DNA of 43,847 nt, taken from the IMG/VR virus record IMGVR_UViG_3300015194_000005, positions 1 through 43,847 of that record, one strand, 5' to 3'. Positions 2 to 21,577 of this stretch are shown in pieces. The notes below the pieces were generated by a model, which saw only the letters and a list, made by a program, of their open reading frames with translations, had not been told where the DNA came from and did not search any database. The position numbers and the translations under genes are program-made. This DNA is from a virus. The stretch's first letter is position 1; each line of letters opens with the position of its first letter.

Positions 2-2179
2 AGGAAGGATATTCTTACAAAGTCTGGATACCCCACTCTCCCTGCTCCAACAAAAGTAGGACCAGATGGGAAGCCAGTCACGACTCCAAATGCCCCCACG
101 ACTTCTACAAATGCCTCAGGATCAACGACAACTCCTCCACCTGCTTCTGGGACGCCAAATGCTCCTACGACGACTGGCGGGGCTACAACGCCTCCTACTA
201 TGAATCCAGATGGAACTCCTGCTGCAAGTGGGACTCCTATACAGCAAACTCCTCCTGTTACGACTCCACAGGATACTGGTATTGCGGCAGCTCTTCAGAA
301 TCTCCCACCAGAGTATGCTTTCTTAGGCCCTCTCTTTCAGCAACAACAGGCACAGATTCAAAACGCGATCTCAAGCAATAAGACAGAGGCTCAAAAGCAG
401 ATGGATAATCTGGATCTTTCTTATAAGTCTATTGCCGATACCATTCAACAGTCGAAAGACGACTACACAACCACGGCTGATGCTATTAAAGGCATGTTGG
501 ATGAAGTGAAGAAGGATAGCGAACAGAATGTCTCTAATCAGGAGACCTCAGCTCAGAACAAGTTACAGTGGACTCTGGACCAGAACTTAAGAGCTGATGC
601 CAAAGCTAAAGTGGATCAGCATAACTCCATGGTTGCTCAGATTGCTCTTTCCGGTGGATTTGGACAGGATGCAGGACTACGAGAAGTCGCTACAAGTGAT
701 GCAACATTTGATCAAAAGATGTCTGACCTTCGGACGACATTTGGCTATGACAGTACGGATTTAAGTGCAAAGTTCACTTCTATGCAGGTTGCGGCGAGGA
801 AGGATTACGCGGATAAGAGCATTGCGAATATGAAGGACTTACAAAGTCATCTTGAGACTCTTTCTACACAAGGAAACCAGAATACTGTCGCTTGGACAAC
901 GGCTCAGAATAATCTTCTGAAGGATTCTTGGAACACTCAGGTTGGGCTACGCAAAGATCTTGCTTCGAGTAACTTGGATATGGGGAAGACGATCGGAACG
1001 ATGGTGGAGAATCGCCAGAAAGCTATTGCAGAAGCCGCAAAGGCTAAGGAGACGAACAGGATCAAGGAAGAAGCTATTGCTGCTGCTAGTGGTACCCGTG
1101 CAGATGCAAGAGCAACTGCAGCTGGTGTACATAATGATGCTTTATCTCAACAGTCAGCTCAGGGCATTAGCACTCAACTACAGGCTATTCGAGGAAAGTT
1201 GCAAACAGCTTCCCAGCCTTATGACGTGTATATCAACGCACAACAGTTTAAGAGTTCCTTTGACGATGCCTATAGCCTCTTCACGGCAAAAGATGCTACA
1301 GAAGGAGACCGGGCAACAGCAGACGCTCAGATGGCCTTTCAGTTCAGTCACTTCCAGAACATTGGCTCTCTCCGTATTCAAGAAGTAGCCGGAGACGCGG
1401 CTAAAGGAAATCAGTCTGCCGCTGCAAAGTTCTCTGCGAATATCAATGCTTGGCTCAATGGTGGTTCTGCTCTTGACCCCACTGTTCGAACAGCCATGAA
1501 GACGTTGATCGAAAACCATACAGCTGATCTACAAAAAGCAGCCACTTCTTCGATCCTTACGGCATGGAGTGACGCACGTTCTGCAAATAGAAACTTCCCA
1601 AATGCTCCGTCTCCGATCACTCCCGATCAATTAACCTCTGATCCTGCACTTCTGAATGCTATGTACCAAGGACAGGATAAATCTGCTGGAGACTTTTGGG
1701 ATAGTGGTGGCTCAGCATCCTCTCAGAGTTCTTCAGCTCCAACCGGAGCTTTTTCCCCCTCCGCACAAATGAAAGGCGGCGTGAGTACAACAATCGGCAC
1801 CAGAACTGTGAGCGGAACACCTCAAATGCTCACCGCTTTACAATCCGCTGATGCTGCAATGTTCAAGGCAACAGGACAACACCTCCAAATCAATTCTGAT
1901 TTTAGAACAGGTGCACAACAGCAACAGGCTTATAATGACTATTTGAGTGGGAAGATCGCTCGTGCTGCTCCTCCCGGTAGTTCACTCCATGAAAAAGGAC
2001 TGGCAGCAGACGTGACGAACTGGAAGGAAGCTGAACCCTATCTTGTTGCCGCAGGTTTAAGTCCTCTTGGGCCTATCGGTTCCAAGATCCGAAGCGAAGA
2101 TCCTGCACATTTCCAATTAGGAGATTCTTATAGTGGGAATGTCGCCTATTCTAATAACTCTCCTGATGCTCAACTTTAA
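2..2179 (+). CDS. Partial virion protein with C-terminal M15 (VanY-like) peptidase domain
   Basis: The reading frame is open from the left edge, so the start lies outside the window; the first ATG inside is at 200 but the Pro/Thr-rich frame continues upstream of it. Order of parts: low-complexity P/T/N/G linker (nt 2-270), a long Gln/Ala/Lys-rich helical or coiled-coil section, a Ser-rich linker near 1700-1760, then about 115 C-terminal residues resembling M15 D,D-peptidases. The zinc-site motif SxHxxGxAxD reads SLHEKGLAAD (about nt 1980-2013) and the closing His lies in DPAHFQ (about 2098-2115). M15 enzymes cut peptidoglycan cross-links or stems. Inference: a virion-borne wall-opening protein used at entry, since it sits with tail genes and not in the lysis cassette. 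Confidence 0.8.
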   Translation, partial: RKDILTKSGYPTLPAPTKVGPDGKPVTTPNAPTTSTNASGSTTTPPPASGTPNAPTTTGGATTPPTMNPDGTPAASGTPIQQTPPVTTPQDTGIAAALQNLPPEYAFLGPLFQQQQAQIQNAISSNKTEAQKQMDNLDLSYKSIADTIQQSKDDYTTTADAIKGMLDEVKKDSEQNVSNQETSAQNKLQWTLDQNLRADAKAKVDQHNSMVAQIALSGGFGQDAGLREVATSDATFDQKMSDLRTTFGYDSTDLSAKFTSMQVAARKDYADKSIANMKDLQSHLETLSTQGNQNTVAWTTAQNNLLKDSWNTQVGLRKDLASSNLDMGKTIGTMVENRQKAIAEAAKAKETNRIKEEAIAAASGTRADARATAAGVHNDALSQQSAQGISTQLQAIRGKLQTASQPYDVYINAQQFKSSFDDAYSLFTAKDATEGDRATADAQMAFQFSHFQNIGSLRIQEVAGDAAKGNQSAAAKFSANINAWLNGGSALDPTVRTAMKTLIENHTADLQKAATSSILTAWSDARSANRNFPNAPSPITPDQLTSDPALLNAMYQGQDKSAGDFWDSGGSASSQSSSAPTGAFSPSAQMKGGVSTTIGTRTVSGTPQMLTALQSADAAMFKATGQHLQINSDFRTGAQQQQAYNDYLSGKIARAAPPGSSLHEKGLAADVTNWKEAEPYLVAAGLSPLGPIGSKIRSEDPAHFQLGDSYSGNVAYSNNSPDAQL

Positions 2180-10567: not shown

Positions 10568-10786
10568 ATGACCAATCGCCCTTCCGATTCGGACCACAAC
10601 CTCCTCGTTCGTATCGATGAGAGGACGCAGCGTCTTGAAGAAGATGTGAAGTCCATGAAAGAACAATACATTTCAAGGGGAGAGTTCGAAGCAAGATTTG
10701 CCCCAGTACAAAAGTTGGTATTTGGGCTCGTTGGTGTGATACTATTATCCTTTTTTGGAGCTGTAGCCACTTTCTTCATAAAATGA
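10568..10786 (+). CDS. XhlA-like lysis accessory membrane protein
   Basis: 72 residues. An N-terminal charged amphipathic helix (DERTQRLEEDVKSMKEQY) is followed by one C-terminal transmembrane helix (LVFGLVGVILLSFFGAVATFF) ending in a Lys. This is the architecture of the XhlA/haemolysin-type proteins found in phage lysis cassettes. It starts after a C/T tract (CCTCTTCC) and overlaps the next gene by four bases (ATGA). Its place four genes upstream of an amidase fits a role in the lysis cassette, but similarity is by architecture only. Confidence 0.65.
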   Translation: MTNRPSDSDHNLLVRIDERTQRLEEDVKSMKEQYISRGEFEARFAPVQKLVFGLVGVILLSFFGAVATFFIK

Positions 10787-11214
10787 TCAAATGGATTATG
10801 TACATTGGCGTGTTCATAGCATTCCTGTTTGCTCTCGTATTTTTTCTGGGAAGAATTCTTGAAGTGAACCCCGTGACGTATCCACTTACTCCTTTTGCAT
10901 TACGACAAAGAGTCTACACACAGGGTGAACAGGTTATTTTCTCAGTAACACGATGCGCAACAAAAGATACTTCCTATAAATTCGCAGCAGAGCTTGTGAA
11001 CAAAAAAACAAGCGTGAGAAAACTCTTAGGAGGAGCGAACGTCTTTGCGAGAGAAGGGTGCGAGACAATAGATTCAGTCCCAGAACTCCTCCCAGATCCG
11101 CTAGAAGAAGGAACATATAGCATAGAATTCGTCATTGAATCTGAGGGGATCTTTAGAAACTTCAAGCAAAGCAAGCGAACAGACTATTTCCTTGTGAAAA
11201 ATGCACGTAAATAA
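10783..11214 (+). CDS. Membrane-anchored extracytoplasmic protein A
   Basis: 143 residues with one N-terminal transmembrane helix (WIMYIGVFIAFLFALVFFLG) without a clear signal-peptidase site, so probably a membrane anchor. About 110 residues of beta-rich domain on the far side follow, with two Cys about 32 residues apart (VTRCAT and REGCET) that could form a disulphide. It resembles the next gene in layout and in a few motifs (P-hydrophobic-x-R/H-x-V-x-x-G-Q near residue 45), suggesting divergent paralogs. The setting between an XhlA-like protein and the amidase suggests an envelope role at lysis. Confidence 0.7.
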   Translation: MIKWIMYIGVFIAFLFALVFFLGRILEVNPVTYPLTPFALRQRVYTQGEQVIFSVTRCATKDTSYKFAAELVNKKTSVRKLLGGANVFAREGCETIDSVPELLPDPLEEGTYSIEFVIESEGIFRNFKQSKRTDYFLVKNARK

Positions 11215-11641
11215 ACTTCTCTTTGCATTGGCATGGTTTACGATCCTCTCTTGGGCGGTGTTGCTCTTGTTGTGTATTTTCTGGCTCGTATGGCCCTACC
11301 ATGTTATTGATTTTACCTACAATGAACTACCGATCTTGAATGAGAATCACATTGTTCACCGTGGACAGCCTGTTTTGTGGAAAAGCGACCATATCCACTA
11401 TACAAACGGAGTGAAGGTCATAATCACCAAGAATCTTGTTTGCTCAACACTCACACAATTCCCTGATACAAGCTATCTCACAAAAGCAGGAAGTTTCACA
11501 GCCGTCAATTCTTCGGTGACGATTCCGAGTAATAACGTCTTGGGAAAGTGCTTTGTGAATATTCTCAGTGTCTTTGCAATCAATCCTCTCCGATCTATCA
11601 CCTTTGAAAAACACACAGAAGGCTTTACGGTAGTCCCGTAA
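11201..11641 (+). CDS. Membrane-anchored extracytoplasmic protein B
   Basis: 146 residues. The N-terminal transmembrane helix (LFALAWFTILSWAVLLLLCIF) is followed by a beta-rich exported domain with two Cys (LVCSTL, GKCFVN). Same overall design as the preceding gene, overlapping it by 14 bases. The segment HIVHRGQPVLW aligns loosely with RVYTQGEQVIF of the neighbour. Function unknown. A spanin-like pair is conceivable from the position, but neither protein has a lipobox and they are longer than usual spanins. Confidence 0.68.
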   Translation: MHVNKLLFALAWFTILSWAVLLLLCIFWLVWPYHVIDFTYNELPILNENHIVHRGQPVLWKSDHIHYTNGVKVIITKNLVCSTLTQFPDTSYLTKAGSFTAVNSSVTIPSNNVLGKCFVNILSVFAINPLRSITFEKHTEGFTVVP

Positions 11642-11660: not shown

Positions 11661-11825
11661 ATGAACCAAGACCTCACCAAGACAGAGAAGATTGCTCTCG
11701 CACTACTCTGTGCGGAAAAGACAAGGCGTGGTATCCTTGTGGAAGAGGAACTGGATGCAATAGAAAGAGCGTTCACCCTTGCATATAAGTTTGGCGATGT
11801 ATCCCATAAGCATACAAGGATATGA
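11661..11825 (+). CDS. Small helical protein (54 aa) coupled to amidase
   Basis: 54 predicted residues, mostly helical and charged (LTKTEKIALALLCAEKTRR, then VEEELDAIERAFTLAYKFG). The stop overlaps the amidase start as ATGA (11822-11825), implying translational coupling. No known domain. It could regulate or chaperone the endolysin; this is inference from coupling only. Confidence 0.6.
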   Translation: MNQDLTKTEKIALALLCAEKTRRGILVEEELDAIERAFTLAYKFGDVSHKHTRI

Positions 11826-12382
11826 AGTACGTCTTCCTACACCATAGTGCATCCAGCACGCCAGGATTGCAGCTAAATGAGATAAATGCATACCATAAAT
11901 CGAAGGGTTTCACTAAAAGTACGCTTTCCTTTTATGTCGGATATAACTTCGTACTGGACCGCAACTTTCAAGTAACCCAAACACGCTCAGAATTTGAGGA
12001 AGGCTGTCATACCGTCACTCCTAAATTTCCAGATGCAAACAAGAATGGCATTGGTATTTGTATGGCTGGGGACTTTACGAAAGAGATTCCTAGCCCCGCA
12101 CTCCTCAACCTCTTAGCTCCTCTTCTTGCTGATATACAGGTCCGCCATAGGATTCCAGAGAGTGAAGTCTGGTTACATCGAGAGGTAGAGAACATGCCAG
12201 GGGGGACGTATACAGAGTGTTGCGGCCAGGATTTTCGCAGTTTAACAAAGGCTCTAAGGAAAACGTGGCTTCAGAACAAGATCAACAGCCTCCGAGAGTT
12301 GATTGTGAAGACAAACCAGCCTCGAACATCTACGGTACAAGTCTACTTAGATTCCTGTATCTGGCTTCTCGCACAACTTTAG
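11822..12382 (+). CDS. N-acetylmuramoyl-L-alanine amidase (Amidase_2/PGRP family endolysin)
   Basis: 186 residues. Family landmarks in order: HHSA at residues 7-10 (first zinc ligand), YHKSKGF at 24-30, the YVGYNFVLD strand at 38-46, GCHT at 61-64, the GIGICMAGDF core at 76-85, HR at 119-120 (second zinc ligand) and the TECCGQDF loop at 131-138 where the third, Cys ligand is expected. This is the fold of T7 lysozyme and PGRP amidases, which cut the bond between MurNAc and L-Ala. There is no signal peptide, so export should need the neighbouring holin. About 40 C-terminal residues form an extra helix. Confidence 0.9.
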   Translation: MKYVFLHHSASSTPGLQLNEINAYHKSKGFTKSTLSFYVGYNFVLDRNFQVTQTRSEFEEGCHTVTPKFPDANKNGIGICMAGDFTKEIPSPALLNLLAPLLADIQVRHRIPESEVWLHREVENMPGGTYTECCGQDFRSLTKALRKTWLQNKINSLRELIVKTNQPRTSTVQVYLDSCIWLLAQL

Positions 12383-12399
12383 TTCTTACCTATCTCTCT

Positions 12400-12648
12400 A
12401 TGGCAACCTCAGTTTCTAACTCTATGAATAGTCACGATTGGGTTCGAGTCCTTGAAACACTCGCACAAGGTGCAGGTGCTGCGATTCTTACCTACCTTGC
12501 TGGAGCGATCCCTGCGATGGATTTAGGTTCGTACAAGCCTCTCGGGATGCTTGCCGTTCTCGTGATCTCAGAGATCGTGAAACGGTACCTCCAATCTCCG
12601 ACTGTCGTAGTTCCCGACGTCGTTCCTGTCGTTCCTCCTACTCTATAA
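12400..12648 (+). CDS. Holin-like small membrane protein
   Basis: 82 residues with two moderately hydrophobic helices: one around residues 20-40 (AQGAGAAILTYLAGAIPAM) and one around 48-64 (LGMLAVLVISEIVKRYL). A Val/Pro-rich tail follows. The start at 12400 is preceded by a clear C/T tract (CTTACCTATCTCTCT) and lies 17 bases after the amidase stop. Two-helix proteins right after an endolysin are commonly holins. The modest hydrophobicity leaves some doubt. Confidence 0.65.
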   Translation: MATSVSNSMNSHDWVRVLETLAQGAGAAILTYLAGAIPAMDLGSYKPLGMLAVLVISEIVKRYLQSPTVVVPDVVPVVPPTL

Positions 12649-16187: not shown

Positions 16188-16676
16188 TTACTTAGCACGA
16201 GCGAGAAGATCCTTTAGCTCAGAAACAGTGAATTTCTTTCCTTCGATCTCAATGGTCTTTTCCGTATCAACTGGAATGCTGGAAAGTCCTGTGATCTTCT
16301 TTGTAAGTTCAAGATCGAACTCTGGTATTTTAGCGATCTTGGCCCACTGAGAGTCACGGACACGACCCCATTCTTTTTCCCATCCTTCACGAGCATCTAA
16401 TGTGAAGTCGGAAAGAATTGTATTGATCGTATCTTTTATCTGCTCAAAGCGACTTTCTGTTACGGGTTTGTTCCAAGCCATGAGATTCTTGTGGTACCCA
16501 GAACCTTGAGATTCAGAACTCCCTTCACCTAGACAGAAAATCATCTTCTCAGACTGGCGAAGTCCTTTCGAGAAGTAACAGGAGGAACAGGAGGAACAGG
16601 AGTAACAGGAGGAACAGTAGGAACAGGAGTAACAGTAGAAACAGGAGGAACAGTTATCGTTCGTATCTTTAGACAT
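16188..16676 (-). CDS. Protein with Cys-triplet repeat head
   Basis: 162 residues. After MSKDTNDN the chain runs as C-x-x triplets (x is Ser, Tyr or Phe) for about nine copies, placing Cys at every third residue between residues 9 and 34. A normal soluble region follows, with a WEKEWGRVRDSQW segment and a short C-terminal domain with SELKDLLARAK. Such runs occur in uncharacterised phage and plasmid proteins; metal-cluster binding is a guess. The start tract (TTTCTCCCCCTATCT) is nearly identical to that of the gene at 22231. Confidence 0.75.
   Translation of the reverse strand: MSKDTNDNCSSCFYCYSCSYCSSCYSCSSCSSCYFSKGLRQSEKMIFCLGEGSSESQGSGYHKNLMAWNKPVTESRFEQIKDTINTILSDFTLDAREGWEKEWGRVRDSQWAKIAKIPEFDLELTKKITGLSSIPVDTEKTIEIEGKKFTVSELKDLLARAK
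16573..16653 (-). repeat. 9-bp tandem repeat encoding C-x-x triplets
   Basis: On the minus strand the unit is TGT TMC TMC (M is A or C), repeated about nine times with point variation. It keeps frame with the 16188-16676 gene and encodes its Cys ladder. Variation among units is limited to Ser/Tyr/Phe second and third codons, so Cys is strictly kept. Confidence 0.85.
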
Positions 16677-16697: not shown

Positions 16698-17276
16698 TTA
16701 AAGTGATTCAACAATAGCTTGTGCTCTCTTGAGGTTTTCTTTGTAAGCGAGTTCGGCGAGGTTGAAAGCATCTTCTATGAGCTTGGCCATTGAGCCGCCG
16801 AGTTTTTCATCGTATCGGGAATGTTCTAGCAAGGCTGGAATTATCTGTTGGCTGTAGCCCTGTAAGCTGATGGCCGCAGACTTCACCGCCTGGGCATCTA
16901 CAGTAGCTTCTAGTTTCCTTTCTTGAGTAGGAGTCATTTGAGGGGGGGAATATATTACGGATTCCATAGCGTCACCTTCAGCAGCAAAGACGTAGTTAAA
17001 GTAACTGGGTTTGCCTTCACGCTTCTTCTCTACTTTACAGATAGTTACTCTGTCCAGCGGCTTGAGAGTTTCGAGATCCTTCTGTTCGTACTCGTTTGCG
17101 TAGAAGGCCATTTCTGCGTACTCAGCATCAGAGAAGATGTGGAGCCATTGGAATTTTCCTGGGATCTCTAGTTTCGTCTTGTAGTCGGTAGCAGGATATT
17201 TACCTACGAACTTCTGATAGGTGACTTTCCTTGGGATATTGATTGCCAAGAGTTTTGATAAATATATTTTCGACAT
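16698..17276 (-). CDS. Hypothetical protein, possible ssDNA-binding/OB-fold type
   Basis: 192 residues. The first 105 residues are beta-rich with aromatics (KFQWLHIFSDAEYAEMAFYA, then DRVTICKVEKKREGKPSYF), and the rest is helical with Gln/Ala. The layout (beta domain with aromatics and Lys, then a helical tail) is compatible with a DNA-binding OB fold, but no family motif can be named. Start tract CTGCTCTAACC. Located in the early gene chain. Confidence 0.6.
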   Translation of the reverse strand: MSKIYLSKLLAINIPRKVTYQKFVGKYPATDYKTKLEIPGKFQWLHIFSDAEYAEMAFYANEYEQKDLETLKPLDRVTICKVEKKREGKPSYFNYVFAAEGDAMESVIYSPPQMTPTQERKLEATVDAQAVKSAAISLQGYSQQIIPALLEHSRYDEKLGGSMAKLIEDAFNLAELAYKENLKRAQAIVESL

Positions 17277-18132: not shown

Positions 18133-18780
18133 CTATAGAAGCTGTTTTAGCCTGAACAAACTTGTCATTCTTTGGCTGTAGTCTTTACCCTCTGCCATGA
18201 GTTTTATATCCGCTTTCTGAATAGTTTTTAATAGAGCTAATTGCGGAGGTGTAGCTAGTTGCCGTTGGCCACTCTCTGATGATCCAAATACAATCTTATT
18301 GATCATTCTGATTTCGTTTTTGTAGACTTCAATGTCTGTAGGCTTGAGATGGTCTTTAATCGACGCTGTTAAGTCTTTATAGTCATCCCCTACTTCATTA
18401 CGCAAAGAAATCAGATTATCATAGATCCATTCGATACAAAGCACCTTAAAATCGGCTGAGAGCCACATGGCAAAATCTATAAATTGGTATGGGTGCATCC
18501 ACGTTCCTCCTCGGTCACTCTTCATACCTTTACTTGTCCTAATAATGTCGTCTGACAAGAACACTCTATCAGAGTGATCTTGGTTTAAACGCCTTAGAAG
18601 GGCCTCAATCATCTCTTTGGTCTCTGGCCTCTTCATGTAATGGTCTAATCTTTTCTTAGTTTTGTGGATCTGCTTATTATAGACGACAAGGAGGTCATTG
18701 GCATTAAACATCCCATCTTTGCTTTCTTGCCGCACTTCATGGCTTCCAAGAACCCTCTTCATTATAACGGATGTTTTCAT
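18133..18780 (-). CDS. KilA-N domain protein (antirepressor-like)
   Basis: 215 residues. Residues about 24-120 contain the KilA-N fold: NANDLLVVYN, a central basic helix, and the signature GGTWMHPYQFIDFAMWLS at 91-108 followed by CIEWIYDNL. KilA-N proteins bind DNA and act as antirepressors or regulators in many phages. The C-terminal half is helical and charged with no clear second domain. It stands between a terminator upstream (18824-18857) and the CGTAC array downstream, so it has its own transcript. Confidence 0.85.
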   Translation of the reverse strand: MKTSVIMKRVLGSHEVRQESKDGMFNANDLLVVYNKQIHKTKKRLDHYMKRPETKEMIEALLRRLNQDHSDRVFLSDDIIRTSKGMKSDRGGTWMHPYQFIDFAMWLSADFKVLCIEWIYDNLISLRNEVGDDYKDLTASIKDHLKPTDIEVYKNEIRMINKIVFGSSESGQRQLATPPQLALLKTIQKADIKLMAEGKDYSQRMTSLFRLKQLL

Positions 18781-18823: not shown

Positions 18824-18857
18824 TAAAAAAGCCCCTACCTTTTGTTGATAGGGGCTT
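18824..18857 (-). terminator. Rho-independent terminator of the exported-protein unit
   Basis: Perfect nine-base stem AAGCCCCTA / TAGGGGCTT with an 11-base loop; on the minus strand it is followed directly by TTTTTTAG. It sits nine bases after the stop of the gene at 18866 and ends the minus-strand unit that begins at the promoter at 20973-21001. Confidence 0.88.
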
Positions 18858-18865
18858 ACGGTTGA

Positions 18866-19261
18866 TCAGTTCTTCTGAAATCCTTGTCCACATTCAGAAA
18901 CCGAATTCATCACACCTTCTGCATAGAGGTTATGAAGGCATCCTGTAGAGAGAGAGGCTTCTGTGAGTCGGAGATTCATGTCTGCGATCTGCTTCACTCG
19001 CTCTGGAGTGTCCAAAGTCTTCTTTGGAATGGATTGTTCACGAGCGACGACACAAACGGAACGATCAAGGGTTCGGTTCGTAATCTGGGTCTGGTTATTG
19101 AACCACTGAATGGAATGATACACAGCGGTTTCCTTGTACGGCATGACGATGGATGACTTCGGCATCGAGCACACACGGAGGGCAGGAGACTCTGCGGCGC
19201 TTGCACCGAGAGGAAGTCCTACGCTGAGGAGGGTAGCTAAGGAGAGAAGAAGACTTCTCAT
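18866..19261 (-). CDS. Secreted protein with signal peptide (131 aa)
   Basis: Clear signal peptide: MRS, a hydrophobic core (LLLSLATLLSVGLPLG), and cleavage site ASA-A near residue 22. The mature part has four Cys (RVCSMP, SVCVVA, TGCLHN, SECGQG), suggesting disulphides, and no known motif. Start tract CTTTTCTCCCCCACTTT. Last gene of the six-gene exported unit, followed by its terminator. Might act on the host envelope. Confidence 0.75.
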   Translation of the reverse strand: MRSLLLSLATLLSVGLPLGASAAESPALRVCSMPKSSIVMPYKETAVYHSIQWFNNQTQITNRTLDRSVCVVAREQSIPKKTLDTPERVKQIADMNLRLTEASLSTGCLHNLYAEGVMNSVSECGQGFQKN

Positions 19262-19309
19262 AAAGTGGGGGAGAAAAGAAAGATAAAATAGACGAGTTAA
19301 GGATAGTTG

Positions 19310-19456
19310 TCAACTTCCTGATCTGGCTAAGACTAAAGCGGCGCCAAGGAGGAAAGCTGAAAGCCATCCAAGTCCTGCCGAAAGATTACCTTCTGCGAAG
19401 CCAATAAGACATGAAGCCAGTGAAAAGAAACACCCTAATACTATAAGCAAATTCAT
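19310..19456 (-). CDS. Two-helix membrane protein (48 aa)
   Basis: MNLLIVLGCFFSLASCLIGF, a short polar turn (AEGNLSAG), then LGWLSAFLLGAALVLA: two transmembrane helices in 48 residues. Start at 19456 chosen from the tract CTCTCTTTTCCCTC and from its overlap with the upstream stop. The size matches small holins or superinfection-exclusion proteins, and its place behind a lysozyme-like gene suits either. Confidence 0.68.
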   Translation of the reverse strand: MNLLIVLGCFFSLASCLIGFAEGNLSAGLGWLSAFLLGAALVLARSGS

Positions 19457-20109
19457 AACGAGTTGAGGGAAAAGAGAGATAACTTCCTTTCGATGTTCGA
19501 GACGTAACCAGCCTTGGAATCGAGACCGCCACCATTCGCGCATGCAGGGCAGTTATGACCAAGGACTGTACGGCGAATGCTTCCGTTGTACTTGGATCTT
19601 CGGAAGACGATTTCATCAGCCATCGCCTGAAGCTGGAAGTGGGTCTCTTTCCATTCCGGGTTCTTTTCGAGGAACTTCTTGGCGTTCATTCCGTTTCGAG
19701 CACAGGCGTTGTATTGAAGAATCCCGAATGAGCAGCCGTGATCTCCGACAACGTGAGAAGCAAGCGAGCCGTTCTCCGCGTAAATCTGTGAGACGTACCA
19801 GCGTTGTTCCGTTTGTGGGATTTCTCTCTTGGTAAGCATGTCCTGGAAGTCTTTGAGGATGCGATTCTTGTACTCCGTATCGAAGCCTGAGAGCGTCCAG
19901 TACTTGCCCTGAGACTCTGGAAGAGAAATAGAACGTCCTCCGATCTTCGGATTGAAGTAGAAGGCCTGAGCAGCAGGAGCCAGAGGAACAGACCAAACCA
20001 TCTCAAGGAAGAAGACGAGGATGCCGAGCCAGACGTAGGCTTTCATACAGGATGTTAAGGAGGGGAGTTTTTTGTAGGTTCCGATGATGGAAGTAGTGTG
20101 GGTGTTCAT
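19453..20109 (-). CDS. Exported lysozyme/lytic-transglycosylase-like protein
   Basis: Residues after the leader contain YVSQIYAENGSLASHVVGDH then GCSFGILQYNACARNG, the lysozyme-superfamily pattern: catalytic Glu in AENG, then GDxG-SFGxxQ. The N-terminus has a hydrophobic segment (YVWLGILVFFLEMVW) and a likely signal site near PAAQA, so it should act outside the membrane. Two starts are possible: ATG at 20109, coupled to the upstream stop as ATGA, or ATG at 20046 (MKAYVWLG), 22 codons in. The first 31 codons duplicate those of the upstream lipoprotein. It would cut glycan strands. Confidence 0.72.
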   Translation of the reverse strand: MNTHTTSIIGTYKKLPSLTSCMKAYVWLGILVFFLEMVWSVPLAPAAQAFYFNPKIGGRSISLPESQGKYWTLSGFDTEYKNRILKDFQDMLTKREIPQTEQRWYVSQIYAENGSLASHVVGDHGCSFGILQYNACARNGMNAKKFLEKNPEWKETHFQLQAMADEIVFRRSKYNGSIRRTVLGHNCPACANGGGLDSKAGYVSNIERKLSLFSLNSL

Positions 20110-20609
20110 AGTTTTGGAAGTAAAGGCAGTGGGTGGAGTTTGGAGCACTTGTCGGCGAACATAGCCGTGTATTCCTCCCAGATCGTGAGACCAGGGCCAC
20201 CCTCTTCGCTGATCTTCTTCTGCGAATAGTACGCCATACACTCTTCTCGAATCCTCTCGATTTCTTCGGTCCTCTCGTAGACAGAGGGCTCACTCACCGG
20301 GATTCGTTCCACTCTGCTTGGATCGTCGAGCTTCATTTCGGAGTAGCAGTAGCCATCTTCCGATAATCCAATAGCGCTGGGCTTCCATTCGCAGTTGAGG
20401 ACAGAATCTCCCCAACGAAACGCGACGTGGTCTCCCTTTTGGAGAATTCGCGATTCTTTTGGCAGTTGTACCGAATTGACGATAACGCTCGTTGGATTTG
20501 TGCATCCAGTAATAAGCAGGATACCAAGCCAGACGTAGGCTTTCATACAGGAAGAGAAGGAAGGGGTTTTTCGGTAAAGGCCGACAATTGAAGTCATGTG
20601 GGTGTTCAT
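20106..20609 (-). CDS. Predicted lipoprotein (167 aa)
   Basis: The segment MKAYVWLGILLITGC is a short lipoprotein signal with lipobox ITGC, giving a mature Cys at about residue 36 of the long form. The coding frame begins 21 codons earlier at 20609 (MNTHMTSIVG), and that extension is also present in the next gene with mostly synonymous differences, which supports translation of the long form. The mature part is Glu/Ser-rich with several Cys and no known domain. Within the exported cassette it may anchor in the membrane to shield against other phages. Confidence 0.7.
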   Translation of the reverse strand: MNTHMTSIVGLYRKTPSFSSCMKAYVWLGILLITGCTNPTSVIVNSVQLPKESRILQKGDHVAFRWGDSVLNCEWKPSAIGLSEDGYCYSEMKLDDPSRVERIPVSEPSVYERTEEIERIREECMAYYSQKKISEEGGPGLTIWEEYTAMFADKCSKLHPLPLLPKL

Positions 20610-20831
20610 TTAGAGAGGGGAAAGAGTTCTACAATCTTGAGGCCAATCATAGCCGTATTTACGGAGCATCATCTTGTCTATTCTTTGGCAGGATTGTTCG
20701 GCTTGGATCACTGCATTTCCTGTCTGACGCCATTGAGCGTTGATGAGGAAAAACGAAGTAACTGCCATTCCAGATATTAAGCCCATTGCCATCGGAAGAA
20801 GATACTCACGTGGAGAAGGAGAGCGCATCAT
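20610..20831 (-). CDS. Single-pass membrane protein (73 aa)
   Basis: N-terminal basic head (MMRSPSPREY), transmembrane helix (LLPMAMGLISGMAVTSFFLI), then a soluble tail with two Cys (EQSCQRID and PQDCRTL). Start at 20831 overlaps the upstream stop; its stop TAA directly abuts the ATG of the lipoprotein gene. The two tail Cys suggest location on the oxidising side. Family unknown. Confidence 0.68.
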   Translation of the reverse strand: MMRSPSPREYLLPMAMGLISGMAVTSFFLINAQWRQTGNAVIQAEQSCQRIDKMMLRKYGYDWPQDCRTLSPL

Positions 20832-20932
20832 AGAACAGCGGGGAAAAGAGCAAAACCAAATGTTTTCAATAGTAACCCGAACCAAAAAGCCAAAGGCACG
20901 AGTAGGAAAATGAATGAACCAGAACGGAACAT
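20828..20932 (-). CDS. Hydrophobic membrane microprotein (34 aa)
   Basis: 34 residues that are almost wholly hydrophobic: SFIFLLVPLAFWFGLLLKTF with one central Lys, then FALFPAVL. The ATG at 20932 follows one of the best start tracts in the window (CTTCCTCACCCCCCACTCT) and lies about 35 bases downstream of a good promoter. The stop overlaps the next ATG. First gene of the exported-protein unit. Confidence 0.65.
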   Translation of the reverse strand: MFRSGSFIFLLVPLAFWFGLLLKTFGFALFPAVL

Positions 20933-20972
20933 AGAGTGGGGGGTGAGGAAGTAGGTTTGGATGTGTGACTCA

Positions 20973-21001
20973 AGTATAGCGTAGTTGACATATCTTTGCA
21001 A
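20973..21001 (-). promoter_or_regulatory. Promoter of the exported-protein unit
   Basis: Minus-strand TTGCAA, 17-base spacer, TATACT, followed by TTGAGTC. The nearest start is at 20932, giving a leader of about 35 bases. The sequence ATACTTGAGTC recurs upstream of the minus gene at 24516-24662. Confidence 0.72.
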
Positions 21002-21037: not shown

Positions 21038-21577
21038 TTATACTGTAGAAGGTTTCCAGTCGTCTGGCTGGGGAGGCAGAATGGCTGTATTTGATCGGTG
21101 CCACGCACAATGATGAGCAGGACACATCCAAATGACATCTAGCCAGTGATCTTGATAGTAGTTACTATGGTGAGCTTGCACCTTGAGGATTTGTCCACAT
21201 ACTTCACATGGTTGCTTCTCAAGAGTCCCGCGCCGTAGGGCATAGAACACGGCTCTAGCGGCTAGCACACCGACCCACCCCTTCCATGTGGCACGACGTC
21301 TTCGATTCCTAGCTGCTTGAAGACGCCATTTGGATGGGTAAAGTTCTTTGCGGATATATCTATAAGATTCCTTTTTCTGGATTCGATTGATCCATCTTCT
21401 GTATCGTTTCACTTTTAGATCGCGAATTTTTGTCACTAAGCTCTTTTTCACACGCTTATCTTTGTGAAGGAATTGACGATAATGATTATCGCAAAGCCCT
21501 TTTGCTTTATGCTTCTTGCTACAACCTTGGACAGTGCATAGCCGAAGAGGTATGGTTTGCGGGTCATCATAAGACAA
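21038..21577 (-). CDS. HNH-like zinc-finger protein, start uncertain
   Basis: Up to 179 residues. N-terminal finger CTVQGCSKKHKAKGLCDNH, a long basic middle, then CEVCGQ, VQAHHSNYY and VIWMCPAHHCAWH: the C-x2-C / HH / C-x2-HxxxH arrangement of HNH nuclease-like proteins. There is no ATG in frame; the frame opens after a TGA and the first usual alternative start is TTG at 21577. An ATG in another frame near 21624 with a good C/T tract (CCCCTTGTTCTTTGTCACC) leads into the same region, so a frameshift or rare start is possible. Likely a homing-type or accessory nuclease. Confidence 0.65.
   Translation of the reverse strand: MSYDDPQTIPLRLCTVQGCSKKHKAKGLCDNHYRQFLHKDKRVKKSLVTKIRDLKVKRYRRWINRIQKKESYRYIRKELYPSKWRLQAARNRRRRATWKGWVGVLAARAVFYALRRGTLEKQPCEVCGQILKVQAHHSNYYQDHWLDVIWMCPAHHCAWHRSNTAILPPQPDDWKPSTV

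Follow-up and report, generated by a model that had tools for sequence, protein, structure and literature searches.

What purpose is served by a compact run of six minus-strand genes whose predicted products are all directed to the cell envelope, and is such a unit found in other phages? The locus lies in a virus record of 43,847 bases (IMG/VR virus record IMGVR_UViG_3300015194_000005), the whole of which is referred to here as the window. One reading frame runs open from the end of the record into its start, and the window is therefore most likely the complete circular map of a podovirus of ~44 kb. It is related by terminase, portal and capsid to podovirus MW202647 (Manatee Spring).

Genomic setting of the six-gene unit

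The late genes of the window occupy the plus strand from ~30.3 kb through the record ends to 12.6 kb, with the lysis cassette last. Early-type genes occupy the minus strand between 22.7 and 12.7 kb and the plus strand between 22.8 and 30 kb, and the six-gene envelope cassette sits within the minus-strand early-type part. The preliminary description had placed it among regulators and apart from the lysis genes. The separation from lysis was confirmed: the late lysis cassette (10.6-12.6 kb) comprises a protein with a C-terminal transmembrane (TM) segment (10568-10786), an Amidase_2 endolysin (11822-12382) and a holin-like TM protein (12217-12648), placing the main endolysin and holin genes outside the envelope cassette. 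The regulatory neighbourhood held on one side, as a KilA-N gene (18133-18780) lies directly downstream, whereas the upstream neighbour is an HNH endonuclease gene (21038-21577).

Other proteins of the window deserve mention. Within the late lysis cassette, the amidase is preceded by two adjacent single-TM exported proteins of ~145 aa (10783-11641, plus strand), for which no strong family match was found. A large protein (200-2179, plus strand, running on across the record ends) has a weak match near its C-terminus to phrog_13118, a phage endolysin profile; the matching segment resembles a VanY-type peptidase and is possibly virion-borne. On the minus strand, the protein at 16188-16676 carries N-terminal Cys/Ser/Tyr repeats (CSSCFYCYSCSYCSSCYSCSSC).

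The regulators flanking the cassette, KilA-N and HTH proteins, would suit a host-phenotype cassette for long-term carriage in a pseudolysogenic or plasmid-like state, in which envelope conversion aids the infected cell, and independent expression is likewise a property of morons (PMC2629481). We regard this explanation as improbable. Neither tyrosine nor serine recombinases (integrase or resolvase) turned up in five clade records, in a search that detected its positive controls, which makes lysogenic conversion less likely. A benefit during lytic infection is accordingly likelier than a benefit to a lysogen, which points towards superinfection exclusion. Our scans for a host or prophage among genome contigs found none.

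Signals and products of the cassette

The cassette (18829-21001, minus strand) resembles a transcription unit, with a promoter, six tightly packed genes and an 11-bp terminator. The promoter and strong terminator said to bound it were both recovered in place by our scan, and both are consensus matches only. The promoter, TTGCAA-17-TATACT with CGC ahead of the -10 element, maps to 20973..21001 (minus strand), and the intrinsic terminator, an 11-bp stem followed by a T-run, to 18829..18857 (minus strand), where a 65-nt region folds at -22.5 kcal/mol. At this consensus level, the cassette has the independent promoter and terminator that characterize a moron.

Six minus-strand ORFs of 34, 73, 167 (or 146), 218, 48 and 131 aa are present as originally described. 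The first encodes a single-TM microprotein of 34 aa (20828..20932). It is followed by a 73-aa protein (20610..20831) with one N-terminal TM segment and a short exported domain containing two Cys, and by a lipoprotein (20106..20609) with the lipobox LITGC, which is 167 aa in length, or 146 aa if translated from an internal ATG at 20546. The fourth product is a predicted exported enzyme of 218 aa (19453..20109), with a signal segment, an AQA cleavage site and an AE-x16-GI motif (AENGSLASHVVGDHGCSFGI). A 48-aa protein predicted to form a two-TM hairpin (19310..19456) and a secreted 131-aa protein with four Cys and a signal peptide ending in an ASA site (18866..19261) complete the set. ATGA start overlaps connect the 34- and 73-aa, the 167- and 218-aa, and the 218- and 48-aa genes, and a TAA-ATG junction connects the 73- and 167-aa genes. 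The 131-aa gene trails the 48-aa gene by ~50 bases, within which the scan placed a promoter-like site, TTGACA-17-TATTTT (19285..19313, minus strand). Because the 131-aa gene has this site of its own, the cassette may consist of two transcription units.

The view that every product targets the envelope was borne out, by a TM or signal segment in hydropathy profiles for five of the six proteins and by the lipobox for the remaining one. Export was predicted from Kyte-Doolittle hydropathy and cleavage motifs read by hand rather than with SignalP, and it was the lipobox that flagged the lipoprotein. By hydropathy, 13 of the 73 genes in the window encode exported or membrane products, and the cassette forms a run of six. 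In a permutation of the curated, partly hand-chosen gene list, a run of this length had a probability of ~0.0005. A cruder permutation, based on genes called mechanically, found no run longer than three (P 0.34), because the caller had overlooked the lipoprotein signal and introduced spurious ORFs.

Sequence duplication was also evident within the cassette. A 92-nt element covering the start and signal region of the lipoprotein gene (20518..20609, minus strand) recurs with 79% identity at the 5' end of the enzyme gene (20018..20109, minus strand), and 10 of the 19 mismatches between the copies fall at third codon positions. In each of these two genes, two candidate starts lie in frame at a distance of 63 nt, and the second (MKAYVW...) falls within the 92-nt element.

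The translation start signals of this phage are unusual. A Shine-Dalgarno motif precedes only 2 of 43 window starts, compared with ~20% of all ATGs, whereas a C-rich pyrimidine motif of the TTCC/CCCC type precedes 30 of the 43 (against ~21%). The C-rich signal is present at the cassette starts and is most striking at the 34-aa gene (TTCCTCACCCCCCACTCT-ATG), supporting this very short ORF as a real gene. C-rich starts lacking a Shine-Dalgarno motif were seen across the clade, in the window, MW202647 (our sequence L004), L015 and L135-L139, unlike the more distant terminase relatives, which mostly have Shine-Dalgarno starts. C-rich ribosome binding sites are able to function in vitro (PMC3310771), and the host may have an unusual mechanism of translation start. 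The possibility that the cassette is a gene-calling artefact was rejected, as its starts are coupled and carry the genome's own start signal.

Counterparts in two related phages

Ordinary sequence searches found no relatives of the cassette proteins, and none of the six matched a library entry. No close relatives were found for the enzyme or the 131-aa protein among viral contigs, or for the enzyme among genome contigs, and nothing was found for the enzyme, the lipoprotein or the 131-aa protein in the phage set. A further 36 genomes, related more distantly by terminase, were searched for the enzyme by alignment, in a run that lacked a positive control, and gave no match.

We compared the architecture of the cassette across three genomes: the window, MW202647 (terminase 69% identical) and IMGVR_UViG_3300012001_000001 (G003; capsid 76% identical), the last of which is in pieces that include L138 and L139. 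The same gene order in other phages had been proposed as a test, and the core of the architecture is indeed kept in both related genomes. Common to both are a promoter of the same class, one or more tiny TM proteins, an anchored or exported enzyme with the AE-x16-GI motif and a secreted protein with a Cys pair. The counterparts of the 34-aa microprotein are the leading proteins of 34 aa (MW202647) and 40 aa (G003), those of the 131-aa protein are the secreted proteins of 93 and 90 aa, respectively, and a hydrophobic protein of 55 aa in MW202647 may correspond to the 48-aa hairpin. As in the window, these cassettes lie apart from their own lysis genes, which encode a VanY/M15-type endolysin and a small holin-like protein. 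Their genomic places are comparable, but not identical, to that in the window.

In MW202647, the cassette (L004:37656-38983, minus strand) has a promoter-like site, TTGCGC-17-TATAAT with an extended -10, and leads with a 34-aa hydrophobic protein. It also encodes a protein of 55 aa, in which one TM segment exceeds the threshold and another stretch is hydrophobic, a membrane-anchored protein of 226 aa containing AETGGCTDGTALNRRNCHGI, and a 93-aa secreted protein with a C-terminal Cys pair, after which comes GGCCACC..GGTGGCCTTTTT. The cassette ends in a stem-loop and T-run, which were read in the sequence and folded. Downstream of it, L004:36496-37041 is homologous (E ~1e-7) to window positions 16698-17276, which likewise lie downstream of the window cassette on the same strand.

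In G003, the core is divided between two units. The enzyme unit begins with a 40-aa TM protein, includes what may be another small TM ORF, and encodes a membrane-anchored enzyme of 244 aa in which AETASCTDGTAVKRKNCFGI is found. The second, 3 kb further on, encodes a 90-aa secreted protein with a C-terminal Cys pair and ends in a terminator-like hairpin. The two units have nearly identical promoters, TTGACGGGTGCACTTCCGT[AC]CGCTATA[CG]T, which suggests that the enzyme and the secreted Cys protein are co-regulated. Adjoining the secreted-protein unit (L139:9651-10820, minus strand) is a 389-aa protein that we recognized by eye and presume to resemble RtcB RNA ligase. At the contig ends of G003 (L138:2-748, minus strand, and the end of L139) is a long tandem-repeat gene (NSVGSSVRSSVWNSV...), which probably marks the cut point of a circular assembly.

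Single copies of the promoter pattern TTG-N17..19-GCTATANT (TTGN3-N14..16-GCTATANT) are present in the window and in MW202647, and the L139 piece of G003 has two. Every GCTATANT-class occurrence in those sequences is at a cassette unit, and the expected number per sequence is about 0.15-0.35. Another variant of the G003 promoter precedes other small genes at L138:2090, and the first minus-strand operon of the window has a similar TTGACT..CGCTATGAT site. These two sites identify the cassette promoter, as far as can be read from its sequence, as a promoter type of these phages that is not exclusive to the cassette.

Could the cassette simply consist of unrelated exported genes collected by drift, with no joint function? 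The lipoprotein and the 73- and 48-aa proteins are without a clear counterpart in both relatives, as such chance neighbours would be; for the lipoprotein and the 73-aa protein, none was seen in the cassette of either MW202647 or G003. We consider drift very unlikely, given the permutation result for the run of six and the recurrence of the core in three genomes. Because the architecture is kept in two relatives, we interpret the recurring cassette as a conserved envelope 'moron' rather than a product of chance. Divergence is far quicker in its proteins than in terminase or capsid, a pattern that arms-race genes would be expected to show.

The enzyme illustrates this divergence. The AE-x16-GI motif has identical spacing in all three enzymes, and at the motif level each has the catalytic Glu and downstream G-I motif of the lysozyme superfamily. 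Homology links the G003 enzyme to that of MW202647 (43% over 121 aa, E 1e-24), and MW202647 was the sole match when the G003 enzyme was searched against the phage set by tblastn. Between the window enzyme and these two, profile alignment did not detect homology (hhalign probability 0.2). The G003 enzyme touches PF01832 (GH73 glucosaminidase) with an E-value of 0.007 and 17.4 bits against a cut-off of 30.2, and no profile exceeded its curated cut-off for any of the three. The description of the window enzyme as lysozyme-like depends on its motif, as no match was found in Pfam, PHROG, NCBIfam or the PDB. AlphaFold2 models built from single sequences, for the window enzyme and for the enzyme domain from G003, were unusable (pLDDT 38.8). 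The conserved Glu followed at fixed spacing by a G-I motif recalls hydrolases of the SLT (PF01464) and GH73 families, from which the cassette enzymes differ in reaching no profile cut-off. By inference only, all three would be glycan hydrolases of the lysozyme-superfamily type. An SFGIxQYN motif after a Glu is also found in phage tape-measure-like proteins, and a pattern search with SFGILQYN matched tape-measure-like proteins of unrelated contigs and no cassettes.

A secreted enzyme encoded with a co-regulated secreted partner and membrane proteins could also be an antibacterial lysozyme aimed at neighbouring cells, accompanied by its own immunity proteins. The MW202647 and G003 enzymes have strongly hydrophobic membrane anchors that would keep them in the cell, and this explanation seems to us highly improbable.

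Candidate functions and known systems

Superinfection exclusion, host-surface remodelling and a second lysis module had been put forward as possible functions. The sequence evidence favours the first two over the third and does not settle the choice among them. Our tentative interpretation is that the cassette is an envelope moron, transcribed on its own, in a clade of podoviruses that do not integrate, and that its most likely purpose is early remodelling of the envelope that blocks superinfecting phages. We hold this reading at somewhat less than even confidence. In such a mechanism, host RNA polymerase would transcribe the units early and the products would pass through Sec. Close to the membrane, the exported enzyme, tethered or freed, would cut the glycan strands of peptidoglycan, perhaps restrained or directed by the secreted Cys protein that is co-regulated with it. 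The small TM proteins would act in the inner membrane. The resulting early change to the infected cell's envelope would block the entry of superinfecting phages. Early expression is inferred from the promoter class. Expression solely with the late lysis genes is argued against by the early-type sigma70 promoter, the location opposite the late-gene strand in the window and the separate lysis cassette of each genome.

The closest rival to this reading is an auxiliary lysis module that assists or times lysis, which we think unlikely, if worth serious consideration. Judged by topology, the six proteins could supply all four types of lysis component, as in a cassette of holin, exported endolysin and spanins: the exported muralytic-type enzyme as endolysin, the 48-aa TM hairpin as a pinholin-like protein, and the single-TM 73-aa protein and lipoprotein as a spanin-like pair. 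The membrane-tethered enzymes of the two relatives would likewise fit a signal-anchor endolysin. However, each of the three genomes already closes its late operon with endolysin and small TM or holin-like genes and has a full late lysis cassette outside the envelope cassette. In the window, the late genes lie on the other strand from the envelope cassette, which is preceded by a separate early-type promoter. In addition, counterparts of the putative spanin pair were not seen in the relatives, and 73 aa is very short for an inner-membrane spanin.

Early superinfection exclusion has a precedent, by other means, in phage T4. Imm is a small membrane protein of that phage. T4 superinfection exclusion involves early Imm and periplasmic Spackle, a small secreted disulfide protein that is expressed early and acts at the cell-wall/entry step (PMC7677548). 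At 97 aa, the Spackle (gp61.3) precursor is similar in size to the 90-131 aa secreted proteins of the cassettes. The systems differ in that Spackle inhibits an incoming phage lysozyme, whereas the cassette itself encodes an exported lysozyme-like enzyme. The cassette proteins match no catalogued exclusion family, and comparison with known exclusion and defence homologues gave no PHROG, Pfam, NCBIfam or PADLOC match. Exclusion lipoproteins are represented by Ltp (S. thermophilus TP-J34), and the lipoprotein of the cassette matched no library entry. Since its sequence has none of the features that define a known family of exclusion proteins, naming the cassette an exclusion system is premature.

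A bolder, rather doubtful proposal is that the cassette represents a new early envelope system, in which TM microproteins, a glycan hydrolase that is tethered or exported, and its co-regulated secreted disulfide partner rewrite the wall of the infected cell and exclude other phages, in a clade where translation begins from C-rich leaders rather than Shine-Dalgarno sites. We know of no exclusion system that includes a glycan hydrolase. If the remodelling interpretation is true, these phages retain an early module devoted to editing the wall of the host by means of their own enzyme, which would lie outside known exclusion systems. The three cassettes are small, testable constructs.

As a kind of genetic element, the cassette is familiar. 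Morons are independently expressed groups of genes inserted in phage genomes, such as the 'ant moron' of the P22 group with sieA (PMC2629481). The cassette resembles them in its own promoter and terminator, variable content and regulator neighbours, and differs in being purely envelope-directed and in having a core that is recognizable across the clade. What is new here is the persistence of an enzyme-plus-partner core despite near-total sequence turnover. Architecture, promoter, topology and motif allowed this core to be traced where sequence similarity has vanished, as is typical of unannotated small phage genes.
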